Shown piece by piece: positions 2,551-16,650 of a DNA stretch of 55,850 nt. The translations under genes were made by a program, and so were the position numbers. The stretch is from the NCBI GenBank assembly GCA_035505375.1, contig DATJQV010000057.1, positions 1-55,850 on the forward strand, in the 5' to 3' direction. Origin of the DNA: a bacterium. Lineage in GTDB: Bacteria > Hydrothermota > Tepidihabitantia > Tepidihabitantales > Tepidihabitantaceae. The notes under the pieces are model-generated. The model was not told the DNA's origin. It saw nothing but the letters and a program-made list of their open reading frames with translations, and did no database searches. Numbering within the stretch: the stretch's first letter is position 1; each line of letters begins with the position of its first letter.

Positions 2551-3996
2551 TTACCTCCCGCTTTCTTTGACGCCCTTGAACACCAGTGTCTCTCCCCCGA
2601 CGCCAATTGCGTCTCCGTCTCTGAGGACGTGTTTGTCGATTCTCCGGCTGTTCAAGAATGTCCCATTGGTGCTGTTGAGATCGCAGACCCAGAAGACGCC
2701 GTCCTGATTGACGACCTGGGCGTGCGAACGTGATATGGAATCTTTGAATATCTCTATCCCGTCCGGCTGGTCGCGACCGATTGTGGCGACATGGCCAGCG
2801 ATGGGGAAAGCCTGGATTATCTCTCCCCCGCTGGACAAGAGCAGTTCTGCGGAAGAGAACTTCTCGCGCCCCGTCTTGCTCGAAGTCCCGCGCAGGACCC
2901 ATACCAGCAGTGCTATGCCCACCGGTATCAGTAGCCAGGGCGCAACAGACAGGACCAGGCCCGGGCGCGAGACAATCAACAGCAAGCACACCAGGCCAAT
3001 TGCCACGGCCGGCGGAATCCAGAACTCCTTCCTGGCGAGGAACGACATAATGGTCCTCCCTCCTACAGATGACGCCCTGCCCGTGCGGTCAGAAGGTTCA
3101 GAAGCCTTCGTAGCTCTGGCCTCTTCCTGGACCATCCCCGGACTCGGCATGTCATTTGCATCCTCCTCGGGCAATCCCAGCGTGTGATTCATCGCGTTCG
3201 CCATCTCCAGACCGGACGTGAATCGCTTTGTCCTGTCCTTTTCGATGGCCTTGAGCACGATTTCGTCCACTTCCTTTGGCAGCTCTCTGTTGAGTTCACT
3301 TGGCCGGCGCGGCTGGTCCCGCACTATCTTCTCGGCAATCTCGATGTGGGTGTTGCCGCGGAACGGCACGGTCCCTGTAAGAAGCTCGTAGAGAACGATC
3401 CCAAGCGAGTAAAGGTCGGCTCTGCCGTCGGGTGTCGTCCCCCTTATCTGTTCAGGCGACATATACTCCGGGGTCCCGATGAGCAGTCCGGGCCGAGTCA
3501 ATCGGGCCAGATACGTCACCTTGGCGATGCCGAAGTCGAGGATGATGACGTTGCCGTTCTCGTCGATGGCGATGTTGGAAGGCTTGATGTCGCGGTGGAT
3601 CACATGCGCACAGTGCGCGTAGTGAAGCCCGAGGCACACCATCTTGGAAACGACGAACGCCTTTTCGACCGACAGTGCACCTTCCGAGGACAGGAGTTTC
3701 CTCAGGGTAGGACCAGTGATGTACTCCATTGTGAAGTAGTGCTGCTCGTCCTCGAATCCCACATCATGGATCTTGATGATGTTGGGGTGTTCCAGCGCCC
3801 TGGTGGTCTTGGCCTCTCGCTTGAAACGTTCCACTACCTCCTCGTCCTCGGCGTACTCCTTCTTTAACGTCTTGAGCGCGACGGTGCGGTTCTCGGAAGG
3901 ATCATGCGCCTTGTAGAGCCTGCTCATTATGCCGCTGTTGATTTCCTCCAGAAGTGTGTACTTCCCGATACGACCGCAGCCAGCCGCGACCGACAT
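2551..3996 (-). CDS. Serine/threonine protein kinase with C-terminal FHA domain
   Basis: A 481-residue kinase. The kinase domain (about residues 10-270) has VALKTLKKE, HRDIKPSN, DFGIAKV and GTPEYMSPEQI, so it should be active. A low-complexity linker is followed by two hydrophobic segments (about residues 320-365). A C-terminal FHA domain follows with the phosphothreonine-binding pattern GRDQPDG..SRSHAQV..DLNSTNGTF. The chosen ATG overlaps the PP2C stop by one base (TGATG). An upstream in-frame start at 4020 would overlap further and has no better ribosome site. The kinase-phosphatase-FHA order is the usual layout of bacterial phosphothreonine signalling modules. Confidence 0.93.
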   Translation of the reverse strand: MSVAAGCGRIGKYTLLEEINSGIMSRLYKAHDPSENRTVALKTLKKEYAEDEEVVERFKREAKTTRALEHPNIIKIHDVGFEDEQHYFTMEYITGPTLRKLLSSEGALSVEKAFVVSKMVCLGLHYAHCAHVIHRDIKPSNIAIDENGNVIILDFGIAKVTYLARLTRPGLLIGTPEYMSPEQIRGTTPDGRADLYSLGIVLYELLTGTVPFRGNTHIEIAEKIVRDQPRRPSELNRELPKEVDEIVLKAIEKDRTKRFTSGLEMANAMNHTLGLPEEDANDMPSPGMVQEEARATKASEPSDRTGRASSVGGRTIMSFLARKEFWIPPAVAIGLVCLLLIVSRPGLVLSVAPWLLIPVGIALLVWVLRGTSSKTGREKFSSAELLLSSGGEIIQAFPIAGHVATIGRDQPDGIEIFKDSISRSHAQVVNQDGVFWVCDLNSTNGTFLNSRRIDKHVLRDGDAIGVGGETLVFKGVKESGR

Positions 3997-5429
3997 CAGA
4001 AACTGAAGTCCTTTCCCCAATACCTGAACACACTCTGCGATGGGTCTCGACTTATCTCCGTGAGTTCTCGTGGTTTCGAACTTGTACCGTCATTGAACTT
4101 AACCACGGCCTTGTATTGTCGGTTGCGCTCCAGCGTGGCCCTAAATGGCACACACCCCCGCGACGAATCGTCCAAGAATACTTCGGCACCTCGGATGTCT
4201 CTACCTGCACCACCCGGCATGAATATGACCGTAACCTTGGCACTGGACGGTTGCGGTCTCGCTGGCTGTTTGCGTACAGTATCGACCTCCCTGGCAGGAG
4301 AACCGGAGTCAGAACCAACAACCGCAGCACCAACGCGACTCGCCAGTTCTACTCTGTAGTATCTACGCGCGAGCCCCTCCACGACCAGCGTGGTCTCAGT
4401 GAAGCCTTCTCGCTTGAAGCGCAGCTTGTCACCTGGACGGAGAAGGAGCGAATCGCCGCTTCTCAGTTGACGGTCCACCCGGGCGCCGCCCACAGTTGAC
4501 GATACGTACAGGGTGTTTGGCGTTGTCGCGAAGGTGGCCCACATCGAGGGAGGAGGATAAGGAGTCAGGAATCGCAGCACCAATGGAACCACCCCCGCCA
4601 CCAAGGCCACGGCCGCCGCTCCTATCAGCACCTTCTTCCGGGTCAACACCCTTGGAGCACTGCGCCCCAGTATTGGGACTGACCCCCGCGGCACGGCCCC
4701 TCTCATCGTCGGGGTTGACTGAGCCAAGATAACCGAGATGTTGTCATGGCCGCCCCTCGCGTTAGCCTGCTCGATAAGGGAGTTGCACGCTTGCTGGCCG
4801 TCCACGCTGCTTAGGACGGTAGCCAGAATCTCCTTGTCGGTGACCTCCTCCCACAGTCCATCGGAGCATGCTAGAATCGCATCCGTCTCCCTGAATTCGC
4901 CCTCGAAGGTGTCGATCTCCACATCGGAATCGAGTCCTACTGCGCGAGTTATGACGTTGCGGTTTTCGTGGCGACGTGCTTCTTCAGAGGTGATGATTCC
5001 GCTATCCACCAGTTGCTGAACTTGAGAGTGGTCTTTCGTCACCTGGCCTATCTCATTGCCCCTGATGAGATAGGCCCGCGAGTCACCGACCTGAGCCACG
5101 AAGTATCGCCCGGAGCCGATGAGGAAGGCCGTGACAGTGGACGACATTCCTCGCTTGTTCTCGGACACGGCTATCTGGAAGATGCGGGAATTGGCCTCTC
5201 GGATGGCGCCCAACAGCGCTGCCTTCCTGTCCTGGTATGCCGGCTTGGCAGCAACGACCCACTCCTTTGCCAGCAACAGAACGATACCACTGGCGACATC
5301 GCCTCCAATGTGTCCGCCTACGCCGTCGGCGATCAGAAAGAGTCCGCTTGCCAAGTCTACGCCGACAGCGTCCTGGTTTGACCTCTTTACCCGGCCTTGA
5401 TCAGAACCGCTGCCGACGTAGACCCGCAT
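3996..5429 (-). CDS. PP2C-family protein phosphatase with membrane anchor
   Basis: A 477-residue protein. Residues 1-240 form a PP2C domain with the metal-binding motifs SNQDAVG, IADGVGGH and CSDGLW, plus GGHDNISVI. A transmembrane segment follows (about 265-290, KVLIGAAAVALVAGVV). The C-terminal half contains two PEGA-like or beta-sandwich stretches that would lie outside the membrane. PP2C enzymes dephosphorylate Ser/Thr residues using Mn/Mg. Placed directly before the kinase-FHA gene, it is the obvious antagonist of the kinases in this operon. The ATG is preceded by CAGGAG. The extracytoplasmic tail is unusual for a PP2C and suggests signal input from the envelope. Confidence 0.92.
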   Translation of the reverse strand: MRVYVGSGSDQGRVKRSNQDAVGVDLASGLFLIADGVGGHIGGDVASGIVLLLAKEWVVAAKPAYQDRKAALLGAIREANSRIFQIAVSENKRGMSSTVTAFLIGSGRYFVAQVGDSRAYLIRGNEIGQVTKDHSQVQQLVDSGIITSEEARRHENRNVITRAVGLDSDVEIDTFEGEFRETDAILACSDGLWEEVTDKEILATVLSSVDGQQACNSLIEQANARGGHDNISVILAQSTPTMRGAVPRGSVPILGRSAPRVLTRKKVLIGAAAVALVAGVVPLVLRFLTPYPPPSMWATFATTPNTLYVSSTVGGARVDRQLRSGDSLLLRPGDKLRFKREGFTETTLVVEGLARRYYRVELASRVGAAVVGSDSGSPAREVDTVRKQPARPQPSSAKVTVIFMPGGAGRDIRGAEVFLDDSSRGCVPFRATLERNRQYKAVVKFNDGTSSKPRELTEISRDPSQSVFRYWGKDFSF

Positions 5430-5470
5430 TCATGCTCCTGTTGCTGCTTAGTGTCCGCACGCCGAAGCCG

Positions 5471-7135
5471 TCAGGATAACTCGGCAAGACGCTGCTTGGC
5501 GCGGTTGTAGATGGTCGCGTCCGCCGTGTCTGCGCTGGCAGGCGGCGGGCCCATCTTGACTATCTGGTCGTACAGCGCCTTGGCCTTGGGACAGGACTCC
5601 TCGTCGCCATAGTCCTTGCAGCGACCGTAGTAATCCTGCGCTTGCTTGTCCAAGTCCTTCGCCTTCTGACTGTCCCAACTTGAAGCGCTCAGCTTGGAAG
5701 ACTCAGCTCGGGCGAGCGAGTTGGCCGGATCCCTCTGCAGCAAATCACCGTACAGCTTTGCCGCTCCGGGCAAGTCCGACACGTCTGGTCCCGAACGATA
5801 CCGGGCCTGCTGCCAAAGGTCTATCCAAGCTGCGAGTTCCGTCGCCTTAGGATCGCCAGCGGGAATCGCAGCGGCCATCTGCTGCGCATCCTCCAAGCTC
5901 CCGAGGCGATAGGTCGCGAGGGCCTTGTCATATGGTGTAACAGAAGTAATGGGCTCAGGCTTTTTCGAAGGGTTGACAGTCGGCTGTTCCTTTTCCGCCA
6001 CTGGATTCTCTCGCGTAGAGGTAGTTCCTGTGCCGACGCGCTTCATGGCGTCCGGATCGTCAGGCTTCAGAGCCCGAACCCTTGACCAGTGCATCTTGGC
6101 CTTATCCGGGTTTCCTTGATTTTCGAGCGCGAACGCCGCGGCCTTGTGCGCCGTCACGACCTGGTCACGAACGCTCCCGCTGGTGGAATCCTTACTCCAC
6201 GCCAGGTCTGCGAACTGAACCGCCTTCTCATTGTCGTTTTGACCAAGTGCTTCCATGGACTGCTTGACCAATTCGCTGGCAAGGACGCTGGTCTTGCCTC
6301 CCCCGGTCGTCGGACCCGTCTGGCGATGAAATGCAAGGTAGGCCCCCGCGACAACTATGATAGCCGCCGCGACACCCACCGCCCACTTCCACGGCTGTCC
6401 CTCCTTCTTGACAGGAGCAATGTCGGGCCTGAAGAAGGGAACGGTTGCCTTCTCGGCTTCAGCCTTTGTCGCCCCCCCCCCTCCTTTCCACTCGATCTCT
6501 AAGCTAGCCTCCCCAAGCTGGATCCGATCGCCGTCCTTTAGCTGCGTCGGCTTGTCGATCAGCTTTCCGTTCACGCGGGTGCCGCTCCTGCTCCCCACGT
6601 CAACGACAGTTAGCTTGTTCTCGATGAACTGGATTCGGGCGTGCTTGCGCGAGACCGTCGCCTCGTTCAGCGTGATGTCGCAGTCAGCGTCGCGGCCGAT
6701 AAGCGGGTTGTTGGTGAGATCATAGGACTTGCCCACCTCCTCGCCGCTACGAACCAGCACGCGCGGCGTACCGGTGAAGGTGAACACCTCGGTCGGTTTT
6801 TCAAGATTTTCCATTCTTCCTACCTGGGTTGGTCGTTCAAAGGCTGCTAAGCCAAAAGAAATCGTGTACGGGCTTATCCTGATGACATCGCCGTCTTTCA
6901 GTTCGTAGTCCTGAGTTATCTTCCTCGCTCCGACGAATGTACCGTTGGCGCTGCCCAGGTCGGAAACGAGATAGCGTCCGGTATCCTCCCTGATCTGGGC
7001 GTGCTCACGAGAGACGAGACTATCGTCAAGCTTGATGGCACTCTCGTCTCCTCTGCCGATCAGAACCACCATGTCACTCGTCATGTCCAGTTCCTGGACG
7101 GTCTTGTGCTTGAGTTGAACTATAAGTTTGGGCAC
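5471..7135 (-). CDS. Double FHA-domain protein with TM segment and TPR-like tail
   Basis: A 554-residue protein starting at GTG behind GGGAGGTAGAGA. Two FHA domains occupy about residues 1-95 (GRGDES..SREHAQI..DLGSANGTF) and 125-215 (GRDADCDI..SRKHARI..DVGSRSGTRVNG). Both keep the Arg, Ser-Arg-x-His and Asn/Gly residues that bind phosphothreonine. A single transmembrane helix lies at about 250-270 (WAVGVAAAIIVVAGAYLAF). The C-terminal half is alpha-helical and TPR-like, counting cargo-like repeats such as AVQFADLAWSKDS. It is probably the phosphopeptide reader of the kinases and phosphatase encoded downstream. A run of 10 C near position 6475 (G on the coding strand) sits in the linker and could be a slippage or sequencing-error hotspot. 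Confidence 0.85.
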   Translation of the reverse strand: MPKLIVQLKHKTVQELDMTSDMVVLIGRGDESAIKLDDSLVSREHAQIREDTGRYLVSDLGSANGTFVGARKITQDYELKDGDVIRISPYTISFGLAAFERPTQVGRMENLEKPTEVFTFTGTPRVLVRSGEEVGKSYDLTNNPLIGRDADCDITLNEATVSRKHARIQFIENKLTVVDVGSRSGTRVNGKLIDKPTQLKDGDRIQLGEASLEIEWKGGGGATKAEAEKATVPFFRPDIAPVKKEGQPWKWAVGVAAAIIVVAGAYLAFHRQTGPTTGGGKTSVLASELVKQSMEALGQNDNEKAVQFADLAWSKDSTSGSVRDQVVTAHKAAAFALENQGNPDKAKMHWSRVRALKPDDPDAMKRVGTGTTSTRENPVAEKEQPTVNPSKKPEPITSVTPYDKALATYRLGSLEDAQQMAAAIPAGDPKATELAAWIDLWQQARYRSGPDVSDLPGAAKLYGDLLQRDPANSLARAESSKLSASSWDSQKAKDLDKQAQDYYGRCKDYGDEESCPKAKALYDQIVKMGPPPASADTADATIYNRAKQRLAELS

Positions 7136-7179: not shown

Positions 7180-8280
7180 CTACTTGGGTTGAAGTTGCAG
7201 GCGCCATATGTCCCAGTCCTGTCCGTTTCCCTTTCTTAGAAAAGAGAAGTAGATGTAACCTCCCGGGCCCCACGACGGGTCCCACTCAGTTCCCTTGGAG
7301 GTAGTCAGCTTCATGAGACTCCTGCCGTCGGCATCGATCTTGTAGATATTCCAGTCCTTGTCTCTCCACGAGGCAAAAGCAATGGCATTGCCCGACGGCG
7401 ACCAGCACGGCATCCAGTCAACGCAATCAGTTCCATTTGTTATCTGACGCTCGTCCTTCGACTCTATGTCTTTGACCATTATGAAGGAGTTGTCACCGCG
7501 TCGCTGGGAGTACGCAACGCTCTTTCCGTCAGGTGACCAGGCAGGATCGGAGCCCGATGCGAAGTACTCGGCCAGTTTCGTGTCCACGTTAAAGATAACT
7601 ATCTGCGGGTTTTCCAACTGCGGTTGACGGCGGAAGACGTCGGTCTTGACAATCCTCGTCTTTCGGCTCTTCGGCGTCTCCATACACACAGCGATGAACT
7701 TGCCATCAGGAGAGGGGAAGCCGCTCCAGATAGAGGCGTCGCCCACCCAGAACTGGTTCTCTCTCTTGATTATGGCGTATCCTTCCATCTGTTTGGAAGG
7801 GAAGTCCTGCCAGTAGAGACTCCGGGTATAATACGGAGACCCGTCGTAGCGGGCGTACAACAGTCGGTTCCCCTTCCACCAGTACGGATAATAGGCATCC
7901 TGGTCGCCTTCCGTGTTTGTGATCTGGCGCCGGTTGCTGCCGTCATCCGCGTTCATGACATATACGTCATTGGTGGCTTCCTCGCCAGACCTCGTTACCG
8001 CAGGACGGGAAACGAAGGCCACGTACTTGCCGTCTGGAGAAACGCAAGCCTGTCGCTCGTCACCATTAGAAGTAGACGTCATTTGAACCACTTCTTTCAC
8101 ATTGGAGTGATCCCATTCCAACCTCTCTCCGGCCACTGGCACGTAGATTGAGTCTATCCTTGTCACAGGCGCGATGACCGGGGCGGGGCAACCTATCTGG
8201 GTTGATGCCAGCAGAAGCAGTGCCAGGCATAGGACGAGTCGCCCGAGGTTGGGCTGCCTGAGAGTTTTGTCCGCTTTCAC
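7180..8280 (-). CDS. TolB-like PD40 beta-propeller lipoprotein
   Basis: A 366-residue protein starting at GTG with GGAGG 4 nt upstream. The signal peptide ends in a lipobox (STQIGC). Several WD40-like/PD40 blades follow, recognisable by ACVSPDGKYVAFVS, GFPSPDGKFIAV, AWSPDGKSVAYS, CWSPSGNAIAFAS and SWGPGGYIYFSF. The family includes TolB, the periplasmic propeller of the Tol-Pal system, but this protein lacks an obvious TolB N-terminal domain. It is better called TolB-like. It is the first gene of the phosphorylation-signalling cluster (44 nt before the FHA gene). An ATG at 8355 is possible but has no ribosome site. Confidence 0.82.
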   Translation of the reverse strand: MKADKTLRQPNLGRLVLCLALLLLASTQIGCPAPVIAPVTRIDSIYVPVAGERLEWDHSNVKEVVQMTSTSNGDERQACVSPDGKYVAFVSRPAVTRSGEEATNDVYVMNADDGSNRRQITNTEGDQDAYYPYWWKGNRLLYARYDGSPYYTRSLYWQDFPSKQMEGYAIIKRENQFWVGDASIWSGFPSPDGKFIAVCMETPKSRKTRIVKTDVFRRQPQLENPQIVIFNVDTKLAEYFASGSDPAWSPDGKSVAYSQRRGDNSFIMVKDIESKDERQITNGTDCVDWMPCWSPSGNAIAFASWRDKDWNIYKIDADGRSLMKLTTSKGTEWDPSWGPGGYIYFSFLRKGNGQDWDIWRLQLQPK

Positions 8281-8494
8281 ATTTCCTCCTCGCTTATTGA
8301 TATGTCTTGGCTGTCTGAAGCGCGAATTCTCTTTGCTTGGTGACGGCCAGACCATGGTGCCGACGTCACCAGCCGGGCTTTCCCATTTGACTAATTGAGC
8401 AGCTCCATTGTAAACACACCTACGGTCTTCAACGAACGCGCCTCCCAGTTACGATTGGCTGCTGCACTGTACAGCCGTTCAGTTCCTGCCTCGG

Positions 8495-8851
8495 CTAGTG
8501 CCGCCGTGCGCCCTCCCGGGCGCGTGTTTTCTCAACAGGGATCCAGACGTTCAGAAAACGATACCGCTGCGGCATCGTGTGCCCATCCGGGCATTGCACC
8601 CGGACCCTTACTCGGCCAATCAACCCGGCAATTGTAAAATCCAACGTCCCGCTGTCAAGGACGGGGCAGACAAAGGTGGGCACATTGTTGGAGCCACGAA
8701 CCAGTCTGAGCCGATCCAGGAAACAGACGCCCTCATGGACAAGGCAGTCGGCAGTGCCTGCTCCCTCCAAAGTCCGCTCCGCTGTCTTCACGGACAAGCA
8801 CGCCCAGAGAACCGAGCGTGCGTCAGTCGGTCTGGCCATTGCATCGCGCAT
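8495..8851 (-). CDS. Hypothetical protein, possible second gene of sigma-54 unit 1
   Basis: A 118-codon open frame overlapping the 3' end of the secreted-protein gene by 29 nt. No domain is recognised. There is a short hydrophobic stretch (LDFTIAGLIGRVRVRV) and no signal peptide. The ribosome site is weak (GAGG about 6 nt before the ATG). It could be a real coupled gene or a chance GC-rich frame; the opposite strand is also open here. I lean slightly towards chance. Confidence 0.3.
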   Translation of the reverse strand: MRDAMARPTDARSVLWACLSVKTAERTLEGAGTADCLVHEGVCFLDRLRLVRGSNNVPTFVCPVLDSGTLDFTIAGLIGRVRVRVQCPDGHTMPQRYRFLNVWIPVEKTRAREGARRH

Positions 8852-9692
8852 CGGACGCCTCGCTTAACTGACCCATCACGCCTGCGGTTGTCGGTGCCAG
8901 CAATCCGCCAAGCCCGGACTGACCGATGTAGACGGCCCCGGACATTGGCTGCTGTTCGCCGGGCGTGTAAGGGCACTGGCACGGGTTTCTGTCCTCCGGG
9001 CTCCGCGCGCGGACGACATTCGGCGCGGGCTCGTTCTCGTCTCTACACGGCGGGCTGTTGGTGAACCTTGTGCCTGCCGGCCGTTCGAAACTAGGTGCCA
9101 TGTCCGTTCTCGCACCGCCCGAACCGGCGTGGTCCCAGAGCTCGCTGGACCCTCGGAGAGCGACCTCTCTGGTCGGGTTGCCCTGCGGGGCGACCACTGC
9201 TGCTGCGGGCGCAGCATCAGAGCCGCGATGGCGATAGTCAGTCTGCGGGTCGTCTGTCTTCCTCGAGAAGTCTTCCCGAGCATTGACGTATTCGACGAAC
9301 GACACGACCTCGTCAGCCACCTCGGAATTGGTTAGCCTGATGGTGACTGCGGCCACGTAGAGAACCTTCAGGATGTTACGCGCCTGGTCTGAGCCGTCAC
9401 GCTCAAGACCGGCTAAGAACGCTGCAGTCGCGGCGCCACGGTCGTGGTTTTCCACCAGCGCCCTGATGCAACTCACGTAGTCGTCGGCACCTCTGCAGCC
9501 GTTGCCGCGCAGGATGCCGCGCAGAACCTGATATGCAGCCTCACGCTGCAACCGATGGAGCGTGGCCTGTCCGATGTTTCCGCCCGAACCGTCGATGACC
9601 TGGCCAAGGTCTCCCAAGAGTCCTGCTTGCGCTGACGCCGCCATGGCGAGGCCGATCACGATTGCGAATACGGTCCTCTTCACGCTGTTCAC
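8823..9692 (-). CDS. Secreted protein of unknown function, sigma-54 unit 1
   Basis: A 289-residue protein starting at GTG behind GAGGAGGATTC. A clear signal peptide (about residues 1-24, ending ASAQA) precedes a helical N-terminal half containing the cysteine pair NGC...YVSC. The C-terminal half is Pro/Arg/Glu-rich and probably disordered, and ends with a GAVYIGQSG motif. A similar EVYVGQSS motif occurs in the secreted protein encoded at 10088-10636, so the two may be distant relatives. The gene lies about 85 nt downstream of the predicted transcription start of a sigma-54 promoter. Function is not recognised; an envelope or extracellular role is inferred from the signal peptide. Confidence 0.65.
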   Translation of the reverse strand: MNSVKRTVFAIVIGLAMAASAQAGLLGDLGQVIDGSGGNIGQATLHRLQREAAYQVLRGILRGNGCRGADDYVSCIRALVENHDRGAATAAFLAGLERDGSDQARNILKVLYVAAVTIRLTNSEVADEVVSFVEYVNAREDFSRKTDDPQTDYRHRGSDAAPAAAVVAPQGNPTREVALRGSSELWDHAGSGGARTDMAPSFERPAGTRFTNSPPCRDENEPAPNVVRARSPEDRNPCQCPYTPGEQQPMSGAVYIGQSGLGGLLAPTTAGVMGQLSEASDARCNGQTD

Positions 9693-9734
9693 GAATCCTC
9701 CTCTGGTTTCTTCTACCTTCCCGAGAACTATGGA

Positions 9735-9775
9735 CTCACGACTTATGCCGGAGTCTGGTTTGTCATGCGTCATCG
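9735..9775 (-). promoter_or_regulatory. Conserved 41-nt 5' leader, copy 1
   Basis: This is the first of three near-identical 41-nt segments lying exactly at the predicted +1 of the three sigma-54 promoters. It starts CGATGA on the minus strand and ends TCGTGAG. It contains a short stem, GACT...AGTC, around an 8-nt loop. Confidence 0.5.
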
Positions 9776-9787
9776 CAATAGACAAAG

Positions 9788-9802
9788 GCAGCAAGCGTGC
9801 CA
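9788..9802 (-). promoter_or_regulatory. Sigma-54 type (-24/-12) promoter, copy 1
   Basis: The minus strand reads TGGCACGCTTGCTGC. The -24 element TGGCAC is perfect, and the -12 GC lies the required 10 bp from the GG. The only departure from consensus is CTGC in place of TTGC. Predicted +1 is near 9776. Confidence 0.72.
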
Positions 9803-9877
9803 GAGGTGGTTAGCGCCGTTGTTTCAGTAGGTTGGACAGGGCGAAGCAAGCTGCGGCCGCGTGCAAGGGGTTTTCGT

Positions 9878-9915
9878 GTTGCGCGGGCGCAACGGGGTTG
9901 TGGCGGGCACGCAAC
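9878..9915. promoter_or_regulatory. Tandem palindromic activator sites, copy 1
   Basis: A palindrome GTTGCGCGGGCGCAAC (9878-9893, 7-bp perfect arms) is followed by a degenerate second site at 9900-9915 that matches the best site at 13 of 16 positions. They lie about 75-125 bp upstream of the sigma-54 promoter, the usual position for an enhancer-binding protein. Confidence 0.65.
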
Positions 9916-10041
9916 AGCAACAAAGCACGTCGGGCGGTATGAGAGAGGCGGCTGCAGAGCCGCTCCTCGATTCGTCATTGGACAATCTCGACGAGTTCAC
10001 GCGTCTCCGTGATGTCGCCAATCCTGAGTTTGCAAGTGTCA

Positions 10042-10061
10042 GGGCGGGCGCAAGCCCGCCC
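10042..10061. terminator. GC-rich stem-loop, possible terminator
   Basis: Arms GGGCGGGC and GCCCGCCC enclose a GCAA loop. It starts 26 nt after the stop of the secreted-protein gene transcribed towards it. There is no clear T-run, so termination is only likely. Confidence 0.45.
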
Positions 10062-10087
10062 CGACCGCACGAATCGGGCGCGCCCTA

Positions 10088-10636
10088 CTACCGCGGATGC
10101 ACGGGCCTTGTTTCTGTGTACTGGATTGGGCCGGCCTGGAATGACAGCTGGTCAGTCAAACCGCGCCGGCTGTCAAGGCACTTCGTGGCGGAGGCCTCAA
10201 CCCCCACCGGCCCGAGTCTGCCACTGACGCCGCCGCCGAAGCAGGCACCGCTCGACTGGCCGACGTAAACCTCTCCCCGAGCCAGCTCACCGGCGTCAAC
10301 TGACAGAGTGCCTTGGTTGTCAACGCACACTCCAATGGGACCAGCACCGTAGCACGCGCCGACCGTGCGCTCGACCTGGTCACCCGACGTGGACCCCTGG
10401 TAGTTGCTCAAGCCGGTTGCGGAGCTGTGGCCGTTCACGGTCGGACTCGGATTCGAATAGTAGGGAGACTGAGGGAGGCAGCGAGTCGGGTAGGAGCAGT
10501 TGTTCTGATACGAGTTGCCGTGAGGATAGTACTGCGCCTGCACCAGTGACGCGAATGCACTGATTGCGACGAGCAGTGCCGCAACTGCCACGGACTGAGC
10601 ATAGGTCCTCGTTGTTAGGCGATTGCAGTGAGACAT
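10088..10636 (-). CDS. Small secreted protein, sigma-54 unit 2
   Basis: A 182-residue protein whose ATG follows AGGAGGAGATGAA. The signal peptide ends SLVQAQ near residue 35. The mature part is rich in Tyr, Ser, Asn and Gly at its start and contains eight or so cysteines or Gly-rich turns (ACYGAG, ACFGGGVSG), suggesting a small disulfide-rich or surface protein. A GEVYVGQSS motif matches GAVYIGQSG in the protein of unit 1. The leader is about 128 nt and includes the conserved 41-nt element. No family recognised. Confidence 0.65.
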   Translation of the reverse strand: MSHCNRLTTRTYAQSVAVAALLVAISAFASLVQAQYYPHGNSYQNNCSYPTRCLPQSPYYSNPSPTVNGHSSATGLSNYQGSTSGDQVERTVGACYGAGPIGVCVDNQGTLSVDAGELARGEVYVGQSSGACFGGGVSGRLGPVGVEASATKCLDSRRGLTDQLSFQAGPIQYTETRPVHPR

Positions 10637-10722
10637 TTCATCTCCTCCTGTGAGCATCCCATTCAGCGCACCAGGGATGCGAGTTCTCGTCTCCGGCTCG
10701 GTGCCGCCGGATGAAGCGTGGG

Positions 10723-10763
10723 CTCGCGACTTATGCCGGAGTCTGGTTTGACATGCATCATCG
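10723..10763 (-). promoter_or_regulatory. Conserved 41-nt 5' leader, copy 2
   Basis: Second copy, beginning one base after the predicted +1 (10764). It contains GACTCCGGCATAAGTC, able to form the GACT/AGTC stem. Similarity to copy 3 continues downstream to about 10696, with another possible hairpin CCGGC...GCCGG. Confidence 0.5.
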
Positions 10764-10775
10764 GGACAGGTGAGT

Positions 10776-10790
10776 GCAGCATGCGTGCCA
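10776..10790 (-). promoter_or_regulatory. Sigma-54 type (-24/-12) promoter, copy 2
   Basis: The minus strand reads TGGCACGCATGCTGC, with a perfect TGGCAC and 10 bp between GG and GC. Predicted +1 is near 10764. Confidence 0.72.
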
Positions 10791-10865
10791 GAGGCGGCTG
10801 GCGCTGCTATTTCAGGGGCTAGGCTGGCTAGAGCAGGCTGAAGTTCGACGTGAGGGATCGCTCGT

Positions 10866-10903
10866 GTTGCGGGGCGCCACGGTGGCTGTTGCGTGGACGC
10901 AAC
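10866..10903. promoter_or_regulatory. Tandem palindromic activator sites, copy 2
   Basis: A degenerate site (GTTGCGGGGCGCCAC, 10866-10880) lies 7 bp before the best palindrome of the set, GTTGCGTGGACGCAAC (10888-10903). Total length is 38 bp, as in copy 1. Confidence 0.68.
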
Positions 10904-10945
10904 ATGCGGCGAAGGCAGAGAGACCTCTCCACTGCGGTCGGAATG

Positions 10946-11344
10946 GCACCGCGGGCTCGGGCTTCCGAGCAGGCGGGAGGCGATCAGCCGTCGGCTGTGA
11001 GCTGTGGGCCGTCAGTGGTGGTCAGTGGGGAGATAAAAGCACGTGCCCGGCGGGGCTCCAACCGTTGCTCTACTTGATATGCGCCGGGACCCTATCTTGT
11101 GGAGGATCCCCGACGTGCCCCGATGATGCGAAACGTTTAGCGTCCCCGATGCCTCCCAGTTCGCGTAACTCCTCCATGTCCTCTGGACCTGTCATCTCCG
11201 ATAGAGGGACTTGGGCCAACCACATGTTCCGCGGGTCACTCCGGTCATAGGGGAGCCTACGTCGTCACAAGCACGGTTTCACTCCGCCATCTCGACAGAG
11301 GTTTGCTCACTCCTTACGCGAGATTCCCAGAATGGTGGTAGATG
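10946..11344. other. Intergenic stretch, possible gene remnant
   Basis: No convincing gene. A minus-strand open frame of 51 codons (11225 to 11070) has a protein-like composition (NMWLAQVPLSEMTG...) but starts just after an in-frame stop and has no ribosome site. It may be the tail of a decayed gene. Around 10990-11030 there is a self-similar dispersed repeat (CGTCGGCTGTGAGCTGTGGG). Confidence 0.3.
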
Positions 11345-11493
11345 TGGGGCTGTTGAAAGAGGGCCTCACTACGTTCCGTCAGCGTGGCGGGCAGAATGAA
11401 GCCAGTGGAAGTAGCTCTACTGCGGCGGTTGCGGACGGCCGCTCCTGCGTGAAGCCTCAGGTCGGCTCCAAGATGGGGTTTTTCAACAGCCCC
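11345..11493. mobile_element. MITE-like element, copy A
   Basis: A 149-bp segment bounded by imperfect terminal inverted repeats: GGGGCTGTTGAAA at 11346-11358 and TTTTTCAACAGCCCC at 11479-11493. It has no coding capacity. A second copy of identical length lies at 42471-42619, and the right halves align well (CTACTGC.GCGGTTGC.GACGGCCGCT...). This fits a non-autonomous transposon remnant; no matching transposase gene is in the window. Confidence 0.7.
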
Positions 11494-11560
11494 GATGCAC
11501 CTATGCTGCTACGGATCTACTGTGGCTTCATCCTGACGTCAGGCGGTCCGCAGAGGATGG

Positions 11561-12013
11561 TCATTTGAAGTTCGGATCGTCGTCGTGCCGCGGCCACCAA
11601 GTCAATGTGTTTACGGTGCCATGGCTGTCCTCAACCCGAATCGTGGCACTGGCGTTATCGGCGTCATCAGTGGACACAGCCCCACAATTGATAGACCAAC
11701 TATACGTTTGGTTTACTCCAGCCCGCGCGTTCGCTTGTTCATCATAGGTAACAACGTCCCTGTGGTAGTCGCGGTACGAAATCGTCACAGTTGCATGGTA
11801 GTATTCCGACCACCAGTTGTTCGTCGTAATCTGAGCGTGCAGGTAGTACGTGTTGCCTACGAGGTTTGCTCCTATACCTGTCGGCCACGTGCTGGCATTG
11901 GCGAGTCCTGGAATCGCCAACGCGAGTGCCACCAGTGCACCGACTACTGCCGTCAGCGGGATCAGTGCCCGCGAGCCGGACTGGTGGCGTTGTTTCTCAA
12001 CCGCGTTTCTCAT
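11561..12013 (-). CDS. Small secreted protein, sigma-54 unit 3
   Basis: A 150-residue protein whose ATG follows AAGGAGCAAGC. The signal peptide is about 40 residues with hydrophobic core TAVVGALVALALAIPGLANA. The mature part is a beta-rich domain with aromatic-rich strands (NTYYLHAQITTNNWWSEYYHATVTISY) and ends with a His/Asp-rich tail. It could be a small extracellular beta-sandwich; no family recognised. The stop lies 67 bp from MITE copy A. Its promoter region is the closest of the three to the response-regulator gene. Confidence 0.65.
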   Translation of the reverse strand: MRNAVEKQRHQSGSRALIPLTAVVGALVALALAIPGLANASTWPTGIGANLVGNTYYLHAQITTNNWWSEYYHATVTISYRDYHRDVVTYDEQANARAGVNQTYSWSINCGAVSTDDADNASATIRVEDSHGTVNTLTWWPRHDDDPNFK

Positions 12014-12089
12014 GCTTGCTCCTTGTTCCCGCCGCGCACCACGGCGTTCGACTTCGCCTTCGGCTCGGTGCAGCCGGATGAAGCACGGA

Positions 12090-12130
12090 CTCGCGACCAT
12101 TGCCGAAGTCTGGTTTGACATGCATCATCG
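12090..12130 (-). promoter_or_regulatory. Conserved 41-nt 5' leader, copy 3
   Basis: Third copy, starting at the predicted +1. The stem reads GACT...GGTC here, so a G-U pair replaces A-U and pairing is kept. Homology with copy 2 continues to about 12055 and includes the hairpin CGGC...GCCG. Confidence 0.5.
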
Positions 12131-12142
12131 AACCATACCAGA

Positions 12143-12157
12143 GCAGCAAGCGTGCCA
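12143..12157 (-). promoter_or_regulatory. Sigma-54 type (-24/-12) promoter, copy 3
   Basis: The minus strand reads TGGCACGCTTGCTGC followed by T, identical to copy 1 in the core and with the correct GG-N10-GC spacing. Predicted +1 is near 12131. Confidence 0.75.
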
Positions 12158-12233
12158 GCGGTAATTGGCGCTGCTGTTTCAGAGGGTTAGGCTAGATGGA
12201 GCGGACTGCGTTCGGGCGTAGTGGCGTGTTTGT

Positions 12234-12272
12234 GTTCCGTGGACGCAACGGCTGGTGTTGCGTGGACGCAAC
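12234..12272. promoter_or_regulatory. Tandem palindromic activator sites, copy 3
   Basis: GTTCCGTGGACGCAAC (12234-12249, one arm with one mismatch) and GTTGCGTGGACGCAAC (12257-12272) are separated by 7 bp. They lie about 118 bp from the end of the response-regulator gene. Confidence 0.7.
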
Positions 12273-12390
12273 AGGTGGAGCGCGCCGAGAGATTCCTCCA
12301 CTACGGTCGGAATTACGTGATGGAAGGGGCCGGAGTGACGAGACGGAATCGGTCGTAGGCGGAAAGCGGCTGGCTGTGAGCTGTCGGCTG

Positions 12391-13764
12391 TTAGCTGCTG
12401 GCCGTACTAACGCCGAGGCGTTCCAAGGTTCGGTACAGCGTGGTTCTGTCTATCTCAAGGATACGGGCGGCTTCGGTTATGTTCCCTTGGCAGTCAGCCA
12501 GCACCTTGAGAATGTGCTTTCGCTCGAAATCGTCGCGAGCCGACTTGAGCGACTGGCCGTCCGATGCCGACTGCTCAGAACCGGTTTCGGCGGTTACTAG
12601 AGGTCTGATGTCATGCGCTGAGAGCGTCTGTTGGGGAAGAAGGACAACGAGCCGCTGGATGACGTTGCCGAACTCCCGGACATTGCCGGGCCAAGGTTGC
12701 GCCGCGAGAAGGTCAATAGCGTCATCTGTCAGCGCCTTCAACGGGACGCCATGCTCGGCGCAGTACTTGCCAAGGAAGTGCTCTGCCAGAGCCGGGATGT
12801 CCTCTGTCCTCTCACGGAGCGGGGGAACCCTGAGAGTCACAACGTTCAAACGGTAGAACAAGTCCTCGCGGAAGCGCTTTGCCTTGATTTCCTCTTCCAG
12901 GTTCTTGTTCGTGGCTGCGAAAGTGCGCACGTCCACCTTGAGCGTCTTTATGCCGCCGACGCGCTCAAACTCCCCTTCCTGCAGGAAGCGAAGCAGCTTG
13001 GCCTGAACATGGAAGTCCATGTCGCCAATCTCATCAAGCAATACCGTGCCCTTGTCGGCCAGCTCCAGCTTGCCCGGCTTCTGGGCGACTGCGCCGGTGA
13101 AAGCGCCTTTCTCGTGACCGAATAGCTCGCTCTCGATGAGTTCGTGTGGAATCGCGGCGCAGTTGAGGCGAACGAACGGCCCGCCGGCCACAGCGCTCTT
13201 CTGATGGACCGCGTGAGCGGCAAGCTCTTTCCCCGTGCCGCTCTCGCCCAGTATCAGGACGCTGGCCTTGGATGGCGCTACGCGGTCAATCATCTCGTAC
13301 AGTCGCTGCATGGCAGGAGACGTGCCGACCATCTGGTACTTCGCCAGAGTCTCGGCCTTGAGCGTGGCGACTTCTCGCCTGAGCAGGTCCTTTTCAAGGG
13401 CGTTCTTGATTGCGACGGTCACGCGGTCAACATCGGGCGGTTTCTCGATGAAGTCATACGCGCCCTCCTTTGTCGCCTGCACGGCCAGCTTGATGGTCCC
13501 GTAGCCGGACATCATCAATACCGGCAGCGTTGGGCTGATCTTGCGGGCCTCGTGCAAGACCTTCAGGCCGTCGAAGTCGGGCAGCCAGTAGTCCAGAATG
13601 ACCAGATTCAGGTCATTCTCACGGATGCGCCGCAGGGCCTCGGTTCCGTCCGGCGCTGCAAGGACCTCAAACCCCTGGTCTTCCAGCATCTCGCTCATCA
13701 GCGACCGGATGCTGGCGTCGTCGTCAACGACGAGGATTCGCGGCTTCACTCTCGCTGGTTTCAT
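12391..13764 (-). CDS. NtrC-family sigma-54-dependent response regulator
   Basis: A 457-residue activator with the full three-domain layout. The receiver domain (about 1-125) has the acidic pair VVDDD and the phospho-acceptor Asp in VILDYWLPD. The AAA+ domain (about 145-385) has Walker A GESGTGKE, the sigma-54-contacting loop GAFTGA, Walker B VLLDEIGD and the arginine-finger region FREDLFYRLNV. The C-terminal Fis-type helix-turn-helix reads NITEAARILEIDRTTLYRTL. The protein should remodel sigma-54 holoenzyme from upstream palindromic sites. Three sigma-54 promoters with such sites lie immediately downstream of this gene, and a histidine kinase gene lies immediately upstream. GGAAGG precedes the ATG. 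Closest named families would be NtrC/NtrX/AtoC; which one cannot be told by eye. Confidence 0.95.
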   Translation of the reverse strand: MKPARVKPRILVVDDDASIRSLMSEMLEDQGFEVLAAPDGTEALRRIRENDLNLVILDYWLPDFDGLKVLHEARKISPTLPVLMMSGYGTIKLAVQATKEGAYDFIEKPPDVDRVTVAIKNALEKDLLRREVATLKAETLAKYQMVGTSPAMQRLYEMIDRVAPSKASVLILGESGTGKELAAHAVHQKSAVAGGPFVRLNCAAIPHELIESELFGHEKGAFTGAVAQKPGKLELADKGTVLLDEIGDMDFHVQAKLLRFLQEGEFERVGGIKTLKVDVRTFAATNKNLEEEIKAKRFREDLFYRLNVVTLRVPPLRERTEDIPALAEHFLGKYCAEHGVPLKALTDDAIDLLAAQPWPGNVREFGNVIQRLVVLLPQQTLSAHDIRPLVTAETGSEQSASDGQSLKSARDDFERKHILKVLADCQGNITEAARILEIDRTTLYRTLERLGVSTASS

Positions 13765-13941: not shown

Positions 13942-16374
13942 CTATCCTGCCGGCAGCGTGATTGTCACGGTCGTACCTGCACCTTCTTTGCTCTCTACCC
14001 TGATCGTGCCCTTGTGGTCCTCAATGATGCGCTTGGTGATGGCCATTCCCAGCCCGGTTCCGCCGGGCTTGAGCGCGAAGAACGGCTCGCAGACCTCGTC
14101 GAGATAGCGCTCAGGGATTCCCTTGCCGGTGTCCTGCACCACTGCCTCCACCTTCTTGCCCTCAACGATGTACGATGTACGAATGGTGATGGTTCCCGAA
14201 TCAACGATTGCCGAGATGGCGTTTTCGATGATGTTGGAGCAGGCTACAGCCATCTGGTCGCGGTCCAGTGCCACCAACGGCAGGCCTTCGGCCAGGTCGT
14301 ACCTTAGCTCAACGTCCGCAGGTCTGACGCCCTCAAACTTGCTTGCACACTGACGAACGACCTCGTTGATGGCGGTCGAGACAAGCTTCGGCGGTTCCAA
14401 CTTGCTCAGTCGCATGAATCCGTCCGCCATCTTCTTCAGCCGGTCAATCTCGTCTCTTAGGCTCGTGTAGTATCGTTCGGTCTCGGGTGTGCGGTACTTG
14501 TCGAGTCGTTGGAGAGTCAGCGCCATCGCGGTGAGCGGGTTCTTGATGTCGTGCGCCAACTTCTGGGCGGCCGGCGCCCAGGATGTCACGCGTTTCATGT
14601 ACTCGACTGCGGAGATGTCCTCGAGCGTTAGCAGGGTGCCGGACTCCACCGGTGTTGCCCGGGCGAGGACTGTTTGCCCGGTGGACAGCGACAGTGGCAG
14701 TTCGCGTGCCGCTCTACCTTCTGCAGTGGAGCTAGCGAGTGAGGCAAGAGAACCTGAAAGTGGAGTGCTCTCAGTCGCACCGGCAGCCAAGAGAAGCTCA
14801 CGTCCCCTTGGGTTCGAACGCCGCACGTTACCCCGACGGTCGAGTTCGAGGACCCCGGCCGCGCCGGTGAGGCCTCGGATAATCGTGCGGATGTCGCGCA
14901 GATGCCGGTATCGGTAGGCGAAGGAGACCAGAATGGGAACCATGAGAGCTGCCGTAAGGATGGAAAGAAACCACCCCAATGCTACCCTTCGTGACAGAAC
15001 CGGGCTGACTCGGATTTCGTATAGCCGGTACGTCCTGGTCTGATCGCTGGTCGGGCCGGCTAGAAGGACAGATCTGCGCTTGTGGCGCAGAACTCGGAGA
15101 TCGCCGTCGCCGACGAGTGATTCAGCTATCGGCCGCCACTTGGAGTCGAAAATGATTGCTCGCCCGTTGGAGACTTGGACCAGCAGTTGGTCGTGGAGGC
15201 TGTCCGTGAACCTGCCCACATAGACGGCAGTACCGTAACCGCCGGTCAGTGGGATCTCCCTGACCAGCCTTAGTTTGTTGTCCAGAATCCTCATAGTATC
15301 GTCTCTGCCGGTCAGGGCGAGCCTCGGCTGGCCCGCCCGATCGGAAAAACCCACGCATGATGCATTGAGTTGTCCGTACTGAGCCGAGAGAACGCATCCC
15401 CCGTTGGAGGCATCCAGGACAAACAGACTGTCGGGCTGTGCGCCAGGGATCGCACAACCGCGCTCGACTACGAGGACTTGTGGAGTGCCAGCCGCCGTCT
15501 TGCCGAACCACGCAACCTGGGCCTCCTGACCGTAGGAACCGATGTCCCGCCGCCACTTCTCGCGGCCATCGCCGCCAACGCAAGCGACGTATGTAAGCGT
15601 GTCTGGCGGGTCATACCCGGGCGGCCGGTTCCCCGGTGCCAACGAACCGACGATAACTTCAGGCTTCCCGTCATTATCGACATCTCCGACAAGAAAGTTG
15701 CTCGGGTTCGGGCCCATCTCGTAGTACCAGAGGCGTTTGCCCGTTGCCCAGTCAATGGCGAAGATCCCTCTGGGCTGGAGGTCGAATCCTACCGCGACGG
15801 AGACGACCAGTTCTTTCCTGCCGTCCCCACCCAGATCATGTAGTTCGACTTGGCGGATGGCCCCATCCCACCAGTCGGGGGCTACTAGGCTGCGACCGCC
15901 CGCAACGGAGATTTCGCGCCTCGGCCAGAGGTCGTAGACGAAAGCGGAGTCTCCGCGGTCGTAGCTCACCCACACAGTGTCTCCGTTGATCCCGCCAGCC
16001 GAAGCTCCTCGTGACAGGGTCCCCTCCTTGAAGACGCGCGACCCAGATGCGACGTCGAAGTTCTGGTCGTACGCAACGACGTAGAAATCGCTGGCAAGCG
16101 TGAGAAGCTCGTCGACGGAATCACCGTTGACATCAATCGGGAAGACTGCGAGCAGTTTGTGCTCCCAAAGGAGATTGATATCAGCAGGCATGAGCCTGGC
16201 TGAGGAGAGGCCAGCCAGCATCAGTATCCCCAGAACGCCACGCCACACGGCGACATGGCGCGCTGCCATCCCCCAATGGTGAAACAGGCGGGGGCCGGTG
16301 AAGACCATCACCGTGCCGCGCTCGTCCGCGTCGCGGATAGTGCGTGCGTCGCGATTTCCGAGTTTCAGTCTCAT
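13942..16374 (-). CDS. Sensor histidine kinase with extracytoplasmic propeller domain
   Basis: About 810 residues. A hydrophobic N-terminal segment (VLGILMLAGLSSA) is followed by about 400 residues of FG-GAP/VCBS-like blades with DxDxDG-type loops (DVNGDSVDE, DLGGDGRKE, DVDNDGKPE), expected outside the membrane. A transmembrane helix lies near residue 470 (FLSILTAALMVPILVSFAY), then a PAS-like region. The HisKA domain has AHDIKNPLT. The ATPase domain has the N-box NIIENAI, the DTGKGIP box and GGTGLGMAI. All catalytic residues are present. It should phosphorylate the NtrC-type regulator encoded next. The ATG at 16374 is preceded by AGGTGAG. A GTG at 16410, 5 nt after a good -10 element, would give a leaderless mRNA and 12 more residues. 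Confidence 0.9.
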   Translation of the reverse strand: MRLKLGNRDARTIRDADERGTVMVFTGPRLFHHWGMAARHVAVWRGVLGILMLAGLSSARLMPADINLLWEHKLLAVFPIDVNGDSVDELLTLASDFYVVAYDQNFDVASGSRVFKEGTLSRGASAGGINGDTVWVSYDRGDSAFVYDLWPRREISVAGGRSLVAPDWWDGAIRQVELHDLGGDGRKELVVSVAVGFDLQPRGIFAIDWATGKRLWYYEMGPNPSNFLVGDVDNDGKPEVIVGSLAPGNRPPGYDPPDTLTYVACVGGDGREKWRRDIGSYGQEAQVAWFGKTAAGTPQVLVVERGCAIPGAQPDSLFVLDASNGGCVLSAQYGQLNASCVGFSDRAGQPRLALTGRDDTMRILDNKLRLVREIPLTGGYGTAVYVGRFTDSLHDQLLVQVSNGRAIIFDSKWRPIAESLVGDGDLRVLRHKRRSVLLAGPTSDQTRTYRLYEIRVSPVLSRRVALGWFLSILTAALMVPILVSFAYRYRHLRDIRTIIRGLTGAAGVLELDRRGNVRRSNPRGRELLLAAGATESTPLSGSLASLASSTAEGRAARELPLSLSTGQTVLARATPVESGTLLTLEDISAVEYMKRVTSWAPAAQKLAHDIKNPLTAMALTLQRLDKYRTPETERYYTSLRDEIDRLKKMADGFMRLSKLEPPKLVSTAINEVVRQCASKFEGVRPADVELRYDLAEGLPLVALDRDQMAVACSNIIENAISAIVDSGTITIRTSYIVEGKKVEAVVQDTGKGIPERYLDEVCEPFFALKPGGTGLGMAITKRIIEDHKGTIRVESKEGAGTTVTITLPAG

Positions 16375-16415
16375 CTCACCTGCCAAGGCCAGGTGGGTTT
16401 GAGGTTCCACGCAGA

Positions 16416-16443
16416 ATTGTAGGCGCGTGGGAAGTGAAGTCAA
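16416..16443 (-). promoter_or_regulatory. Sigma-70 type promoter for the histidine kinase gene
   Basis: The minus strand reads TTGACT, a 16-bp spacer, then TACAAT. The -10 element ends 5 bp before a GTG in frame with the kinase. Confidence 0.65.
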
Positions 16444-16650
16444 GCAGACGGAGGCGCGTGCGAAAGTGGGACCGGGAAACTGGTCGAAGGGTCGGCCGGG
16501 CGTGAGCACAACGGGTCAGATGGCGCGGCTAGAACATGATGTCGAGGACCTAGCCACGGGGATCCAGGAGCAGCGTGCGAGTGGCCAACTACGAAAGTCC
16601 AAGGGAAGGCGAAGGACCACGATGCACGCGGGGCGCGCAAGTGAAGAACT

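Follow-up and report, generated by a model that had tools for sequence, protein, structure and literature searches.

The 55,850-bp stretch of contig DATJQV010000057.1 (GenBank assembly GCA_035505375.1) analysed here, hereafter the window, comes from a bacterium presumably of the WOR-3 phylum (candidate division WOR-3) and carries three genes for exported proteins, g1, g2 and g3, that are essentially unrelated in sequence, save for a weak C-terminal similarity between the g1 and g2 products (E 0.04). The DNA in front of these genes is nevertheless better conserved than the proteins, as the original prediction for this region, made from the letters of the window alone, had stated. The question raised by the locus is what this conserved DNA does. 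The best explanation is probably a local sigma-54 regulon whose messages carry structured leaders: the conserved DNA beyond the promoters specifies a structured leader RNA, made up of two elements designated R1 and R2, which explains why it has changed less than the proteins. Comparison of related sequences shows the layout of the regulon, the pairing of repeats with promoters, the RNA folds and the link to exported proteins.

Sigma-54 promoter modules

The three predicted modules, M1, M2 and M3, were all found, on the minus strand. Each has a sigma-54 -24/-12 promoter with GG at -24, GC at -12 and fixed spacing (TGGCAC-N5-NTGC), located at 9788-9802 in M1 and 12143-12157 in M3 (TGGCACGCTTGCTGC in both) and at 10776-10790 in M2 (TGGCACGCATGCTGC), and each is followed by a gene with a signal peptide, as expected. 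Inverted repeats of the form GTTGC-N6-GCAAC lie upstream, with their near edges 75-76 and 97-99 bp from the -24 element and hence inside the predicted range of 75-125 bp. The tandem pair of palindromes proposed for every module is present in M1 (proximal GTTGCGCCCGCGCAAC, 9878-9893; distal, 9900-9915, with 1 mismatch) and in M3 (proximal, 12234-12249, with 1 mismatch and 76 bp upstream of -24; distal GTTGCGTCCACGCAAC, 12257-12272). In M2, however, only the distal repeat (GTTGCGTCCACGCAAC, 10888-10903) conforms; the proximal one (GTGGCGCCCCGCAAC, 10866-10880), read from the sequence by alignment with M1 and M3, is degenerate and, at 15 bp, 1 bp shorter.

At a threshold of ≤3 mismatches, the window holds 7 matches to the repeat versus 2.8 in shuffled sequence, and none of 100 shuffles scored as high. 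A search of the 3.62-Mb genome placed the 316-bp module at three positions, all in this region, and 5 of the 12 genomic repeat sites with ≤2 mismatches (9878, 9900, 10888, 12234 and 12257) fall within these 2.4 kb. The fourth genomic site at a single mismatch, C86:37830, is not followed by a promoter. Simulated DNA amounting to 12 Mb yielded 298 promoter-like sites, none of which was preceded by two repeats. The genome encodes the sigma factor itself, with a single rpoN gene (Sigma54_DBD, E 5.8e-49) in a stop-free open frame of 509 aa.

Kinase and regulator

The genes for a histidine kinase (13942-16509) and an NtrC-type response regulator, or sigma-54 enhancer-binding protein (12391-13764), lie upstream of the three exported-protein genes, on the same minus strand. 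As judged by Pfam and by alignment with 10 homologues, the regulator consists of a receiver domain (REC), an AAA+ sigma-54 activation domain and a Fis-type helix-turn-helix (HTH_8), with the GAFTGA motif intact as had been predicted. The kinase, whose true start is probably internal to the open reading frame, includes a signal/anchor helix, a predicted extracytoplasmic beta-propeller (FG-GAP-like) sensor and a transmembrane-type helix, followed by HisKA and HATPase_c domains (Pfam). An AlphaFold model of its first half, made with 12 homologues, has a predicted local distance difference test score of 83.6 and approximately 30 strands, flanked by a hydrophobic helix at the N-terminal end and a long helix at the C-terminal end. 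Foldseek matched this model to beta-propellers, including chain B of BAM complexes, which is presumably BamB. The model supports the assignment of the sensor as an external beta-propeller.

Adjacent homologues of the kinase and regulator were found in further genomes at the level of genus, family, order and class. In the locus of the nearest relative, a sister genome (L047), the regulator is 83% identical with a near-identical helix-turn-helix, and three sigma-54 promoters (5187, 8315 and 9932) each have two repeats, 74-76 and 97-99 bp upstream. These promoters precede other exported proteins, for example a matrixin-type metalloprotease with a sorting tail, encoded by the second gene of its operon. 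Across 349 kb of related loci, all 11 perfect copies of GTTGC-N6-GCAAC (3 in the window, 4 in L047, 2 in L048 and 2 in L064) are followed, at a distance of 75-220 bp, by a correctly oriented sigma-54 promoter, where about 0.3 sites would be expected by chance (own arithmetic, 349 kb / 4^10). The original prediction of a local regulon, in which a kinase with an external propeller controls secretion of three proteins, is supported by the presence of rpoN, the domains, the sensor model and the kinase, regulator, promoters and tandem repeats at the same spacing in the sister genome, but it was incomplete, as the structured leader RNA had been missed.

Further features of these loci were observed. 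A conserved DNA block (approximately CTGAARYAGCRGCGCC) between the repeats and the -24 element is common to all six promoters of the window (about 9810-9840, 10800-10830 and 12165-12195, minus strand) and the sister genome (upstream of the three promoters given above) and is absent from the promoters of L048, L052 and L059; a further factor may bind there. In M2 (10920-10946), M3 (12290-12316) and the first L047 promoter (about 5020-5050), the distal inverted repeat is closely preceded by a repeat-like block, ATTCCGACCGYAGTGGAG. The regulators of two other loci, L063 (5675-7045) and L058 (4825-6159), have GAFTDA in place of GAFTGA in the sigma-54-contacting loop, despite adjacent sigma-54 promoters.

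Leader RNA R1

The conserved transcript start of the original prediction proved real, and coincides with the 5' end of a conserved RNA fold. This element, R1, is 54 nt long; every copy begins 11-12 nt past the -12 GC, which is where +1 is predicted. It occupies 9722-9775 in M1, where the outer helix is partly degenerate, 10710-10763 in M2 and 12077-12130 in M3, all on the minus strand. The fold consists of a long stem with an asymmetric, conserved 8-nt bulge (consensus UCAAACCA), a single bulged base and an apical loop of 3-4 nt of variable sequence, and the minimum-energy fold was alike in nearly all copies when each was folded alone. In the alignment, 93% of cells are paired, as compared with 25-43% in slid controls, and the covariation score was reached by 5 of 500 shuffles. 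Compensatory changes are seen, such as GACUC/GAGUC to GACCU/AGGUC.

Since R1 contains a short inverted repeat, it could be read not as an RNA but as a DNA operator at +20 to +45 to which a repressor binds. This is very improbable, because the stem includes an invariant G-U pair and U-G variants, which are pairings that fit RNA and not a DNA palindrome, and because the length of the apical loop is not constant. A short conserved peptide (MMHVKPDSG...) encoded by the leader, forming an upstream open reading frame that controls the gene, was also considered, given that a frame led by ATG is open in several R1 copies. However, in one copy from the sister genome (L047a) a one-base deletion in the apical loop shifts this frame and leaves the stem intact, the loop letters vary at all codon positions, and the ATG, only 2-5 nt from +1, has no ribosome-binding site in front of it; the peptide was rejected.

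Searched with the R1 model, 5 of the 6 genomes of the genus yielded 12 copies between them, and the remaining genomes of the phylum covered by the search yielded none. No match to R1 was obtained among 4227 Rfam covariance models. Two copies carry additional sequence: at L049:12977-13140 (minus strand) the leader is split by approximately 110 bp resembling a small inverted-repeat insertion (CCACGAAAGCACGAAA ... TTTCGTGG), with a promoter-like element and R2 still present, and in the copy at L078:295-375 an insertion of 27 nt might fold into an additional hairpin close to the apical stem.

Leader RNA R2

Directly after R1 in M2 (10656-10709) and M3 (12024-12076), both on the minus strand, and in most leaders with R1, lies a second element of about 54 nt, R2. 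It comprises a first hairpin, P3 (NGGY-GGCACCG(A)-RCCN), a linker with GACGA/G and a second hairpin, P4, the loop of which holds GGUGC, the complement of GCACC in the P3 loop; both hairpins and the complementary loops are seen in M3. P4 has 29 different stems among 34 copies, and every pair of it covaries. Over 33 distinct copies of R2, 95% of cells are paired and 75 show a double change, a result that none of 500 shuffles matched. Contact between the P3 and P4 loops is likely. The end of P4 is separated from the Shine-Dalgarno site by a median of 7.5 nt. With a conserved, covarying structure in 5' leaders, R1 and R2 have the properties of structured cis-regulatory leader RNAs.

R2, like R1, had no match among the Rfam models; the scan returned only a chance-level nadA match (E 2.9) upstream of promoter M1 and unrelated weak matches. 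R2 was found across the phylum, in 28 of 150 relatives at E ≤0.01 and in 23 of 147 at E ≤1e-4. By our own count from the score table, 21 of 147 WOR-3 genomes hold a copy above 30.4 bits, the maximum reached in six outgroup genomes chosen for holding the exact core, and matches below approximately 31 bits were treated as uncertain. When the exact core was sought in 84,980 species, real leaders were seen in genomes of the phylum only, one of which is deposited as Latescibacterota; the assignment of the window to WOR-3 follows from the names of these genomes. Candidates outside the phylum (Streptomyces, Rhizobium and others) were rejected, as the GGUGC hairpin was not at the right place and the sequence resembles coding sequence.

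The genes behind R2 were examined for export with a crude hydrophobicity test, applied in the same way to baseline open reading frames. Of 35 such genes, 27 were of the exported type, against a baseline of 24% (P about 7e-11). The downstream genes point to no ligand. One genome, G109, has near-identical R2 copies (L124:4602-4656 and 5410-5464; L125:2245-2299) before three proteins that are not exported-looking, which suggests that R2 is used outside secretion in that lineage.

The distribution of both elements bears on a purely transcriptional regulon, as in the original prediction, in which the leader would be conserved only through recent duplication of the promoter region and would have no function of its own. 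The three copies in the window and those in L047 are clearly related by duplication, as this explanation would have it. However, copies of R1 turn up in other genomic settings, where the promoters have diverged, the genes are unrelated and compensatory changes are present, and R2 occurs in other families of the phylum, its many different P4 stems still pairing; a regulon of this kind is therefore improbable.

Exported proteins and neighbouring genes

The gene g1 (8823-9692, minus strand) encodes a protein of 289 aa with a signal peptide and has a GTG start behind GGAGGA. The g2 product (10088-10636, minus strand; 182 aa), also with a signal peptide, belongs to a family that only three genomes of the phylum possess; in each of them it is next to the kinase/regulator pair described here and downstream of a sigma-54 promoter. 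That of g3 (11561-12013, minus strand; 150 aa) has a signal peptide and no Pfam family. After the regulon, on the same strand (2551-7135), lie genes for an FHA-domain protein, a PP2C-type phosphatase and a Ser/Thr kinase, separated from it by a gene for a TolB-like propeller (7180-8355).

Proposed mechanism

An external cue sensed by the propeller of the kinase would lead to phosphorylation of the neighbouring NtrC-type regulator, which would bind the paired GTTGC-N6-GCAAC repeats approximately 75 and 98 bp upstream and drive sigma-54 transcription of the three exported-protein genes. Each transcript would start at about +1 with R1, followed in two of the three by R2, which would end a few nucleotides before the Shine-Dalgarno site. 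Binding of the regulator, the start of transcription, the contact between the R2 loops, and the direction and trigger of control by the RNA are inferred. The most likely role of R1 is protection of the 5' end or binding of a factor. As for R2, outside the genus it is often behind a sigma-70-like promoter, and a copy in L063 sits between two cistrons of one apparent operon; on these grounds it probably acts on translation or message processing and not on transcription initiation. Where R2 sits, how it is conserved and which genes it precedes make a role in translation initiation the most likely one: R2 would be a cis-regulatory or enhancer element by which the ribosome-binding site is stabilised or exposed, perhaps with the help of a protein or ligand bound to it.

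A simpler role for the leaders, in which neither senses anything, R1 passively stabilising the 5' end against decay and R2 generally enhancing the translation of proteins made in large amounts, is possible, if on the doubtful side. It would suit the start of R1 at the predicted +1 and the near-constant distance of R2 to the Shine-Dalgarno site, behind varied promoters and before some small proteins that are not exported. The conserved unpaired letters, namely the 8-nt bulge of R1 and the GACGA linker and loops of R2, nevertheless exceed what a plain stabiliser needs.

Several observations weigh against the regulon with structured leaders as proposed here. The M1 leader is without R2, and the outer helix of its R1 is partly broken. 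When the M2 and M3 leaders are folded in full, the minimum-energy structures favour pairings other than those proposed, and the models of R1 and R2 were built partly from copies that were later scored. The loop-loop helix of R2 is almost invariant, and covariation neither supports nor excludes the contact. R2 also precedes 8 genes without signal peptides and is not specific to this regulon, and its frequent use of sigma-70-like promoters outside the genus counts on the same side. A switch in which the 3' strand of R1 acts as an anti-Shine-Dalgarno sequence was rejected, since the duplex energies were no better than those of shuffles for most copies, and this too speaks against a simple picture.

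A wider interpretation, that R2 represents a new class of regulatory RNA used throughout the phylum, either riboswitch-like or bound by a protein, and controlling the translation of exported proteins in WOR-3, is tentative, with chances a little short of even. In this genus R2 would be joined to a second new RNA, R1, at the 5' ends of sigma-54 transcripts, so that secretion genes would be gated by an external sensor and then again at the message. If R2 senses something, it would show how WOR-3 bacteria tune what they place outside the cell. The locus offers two structured RNA families outside Rfam in an uncultured phylum, with R2 statistically tied to exported-protein genes, and a clean testable regulon of one kinase-regulator pair, one repeat and three promoters in the genome, which is kept in the sister species.

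Comparison with known systems

The -24/-12 promoter, the AAA+ activator with GAFTGA, the inverted repeats approximately 100 bp upstream, the adjacent kinase and the exported products are shared with NtrC-family sigma-54 regulons. The present regulon differs in that it is apparently limited to three adjacent genes, has an external beta-propeller sensor and has dedicated structured leaders. Sigma-54 has been described as a controller of the bacterial exterior (Francke et al. 2011, PMC3162934), and the sigma-54 part of the system is in line with this bias.

A literature search on the R1 and R2 leaders, with most subscription journals outside its reach, found nothing. Both are regarded as candidates for new RNA families that Rfam does not contain, the kind of element itself being known. 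5'-terminal stem-loops of mRNA can stabilise transcripts, the ompA leader being an example. R1 likewise has a stem at the extreme 5' end of the message; it differs from these in its conserved 8-nt bulge and in its link to a single class of sigma-54 promoters. R2 resembles the guanidine-II riboswitch, a kissing-hairpin leader (PMC7544219), in having two small hairpins in the 5' leader with loops proposed to contact each other, and is distinguished from it by the loop letters (GGCACCGA / GGUGC), by the downstream genes and by the lack of an Rfam match.

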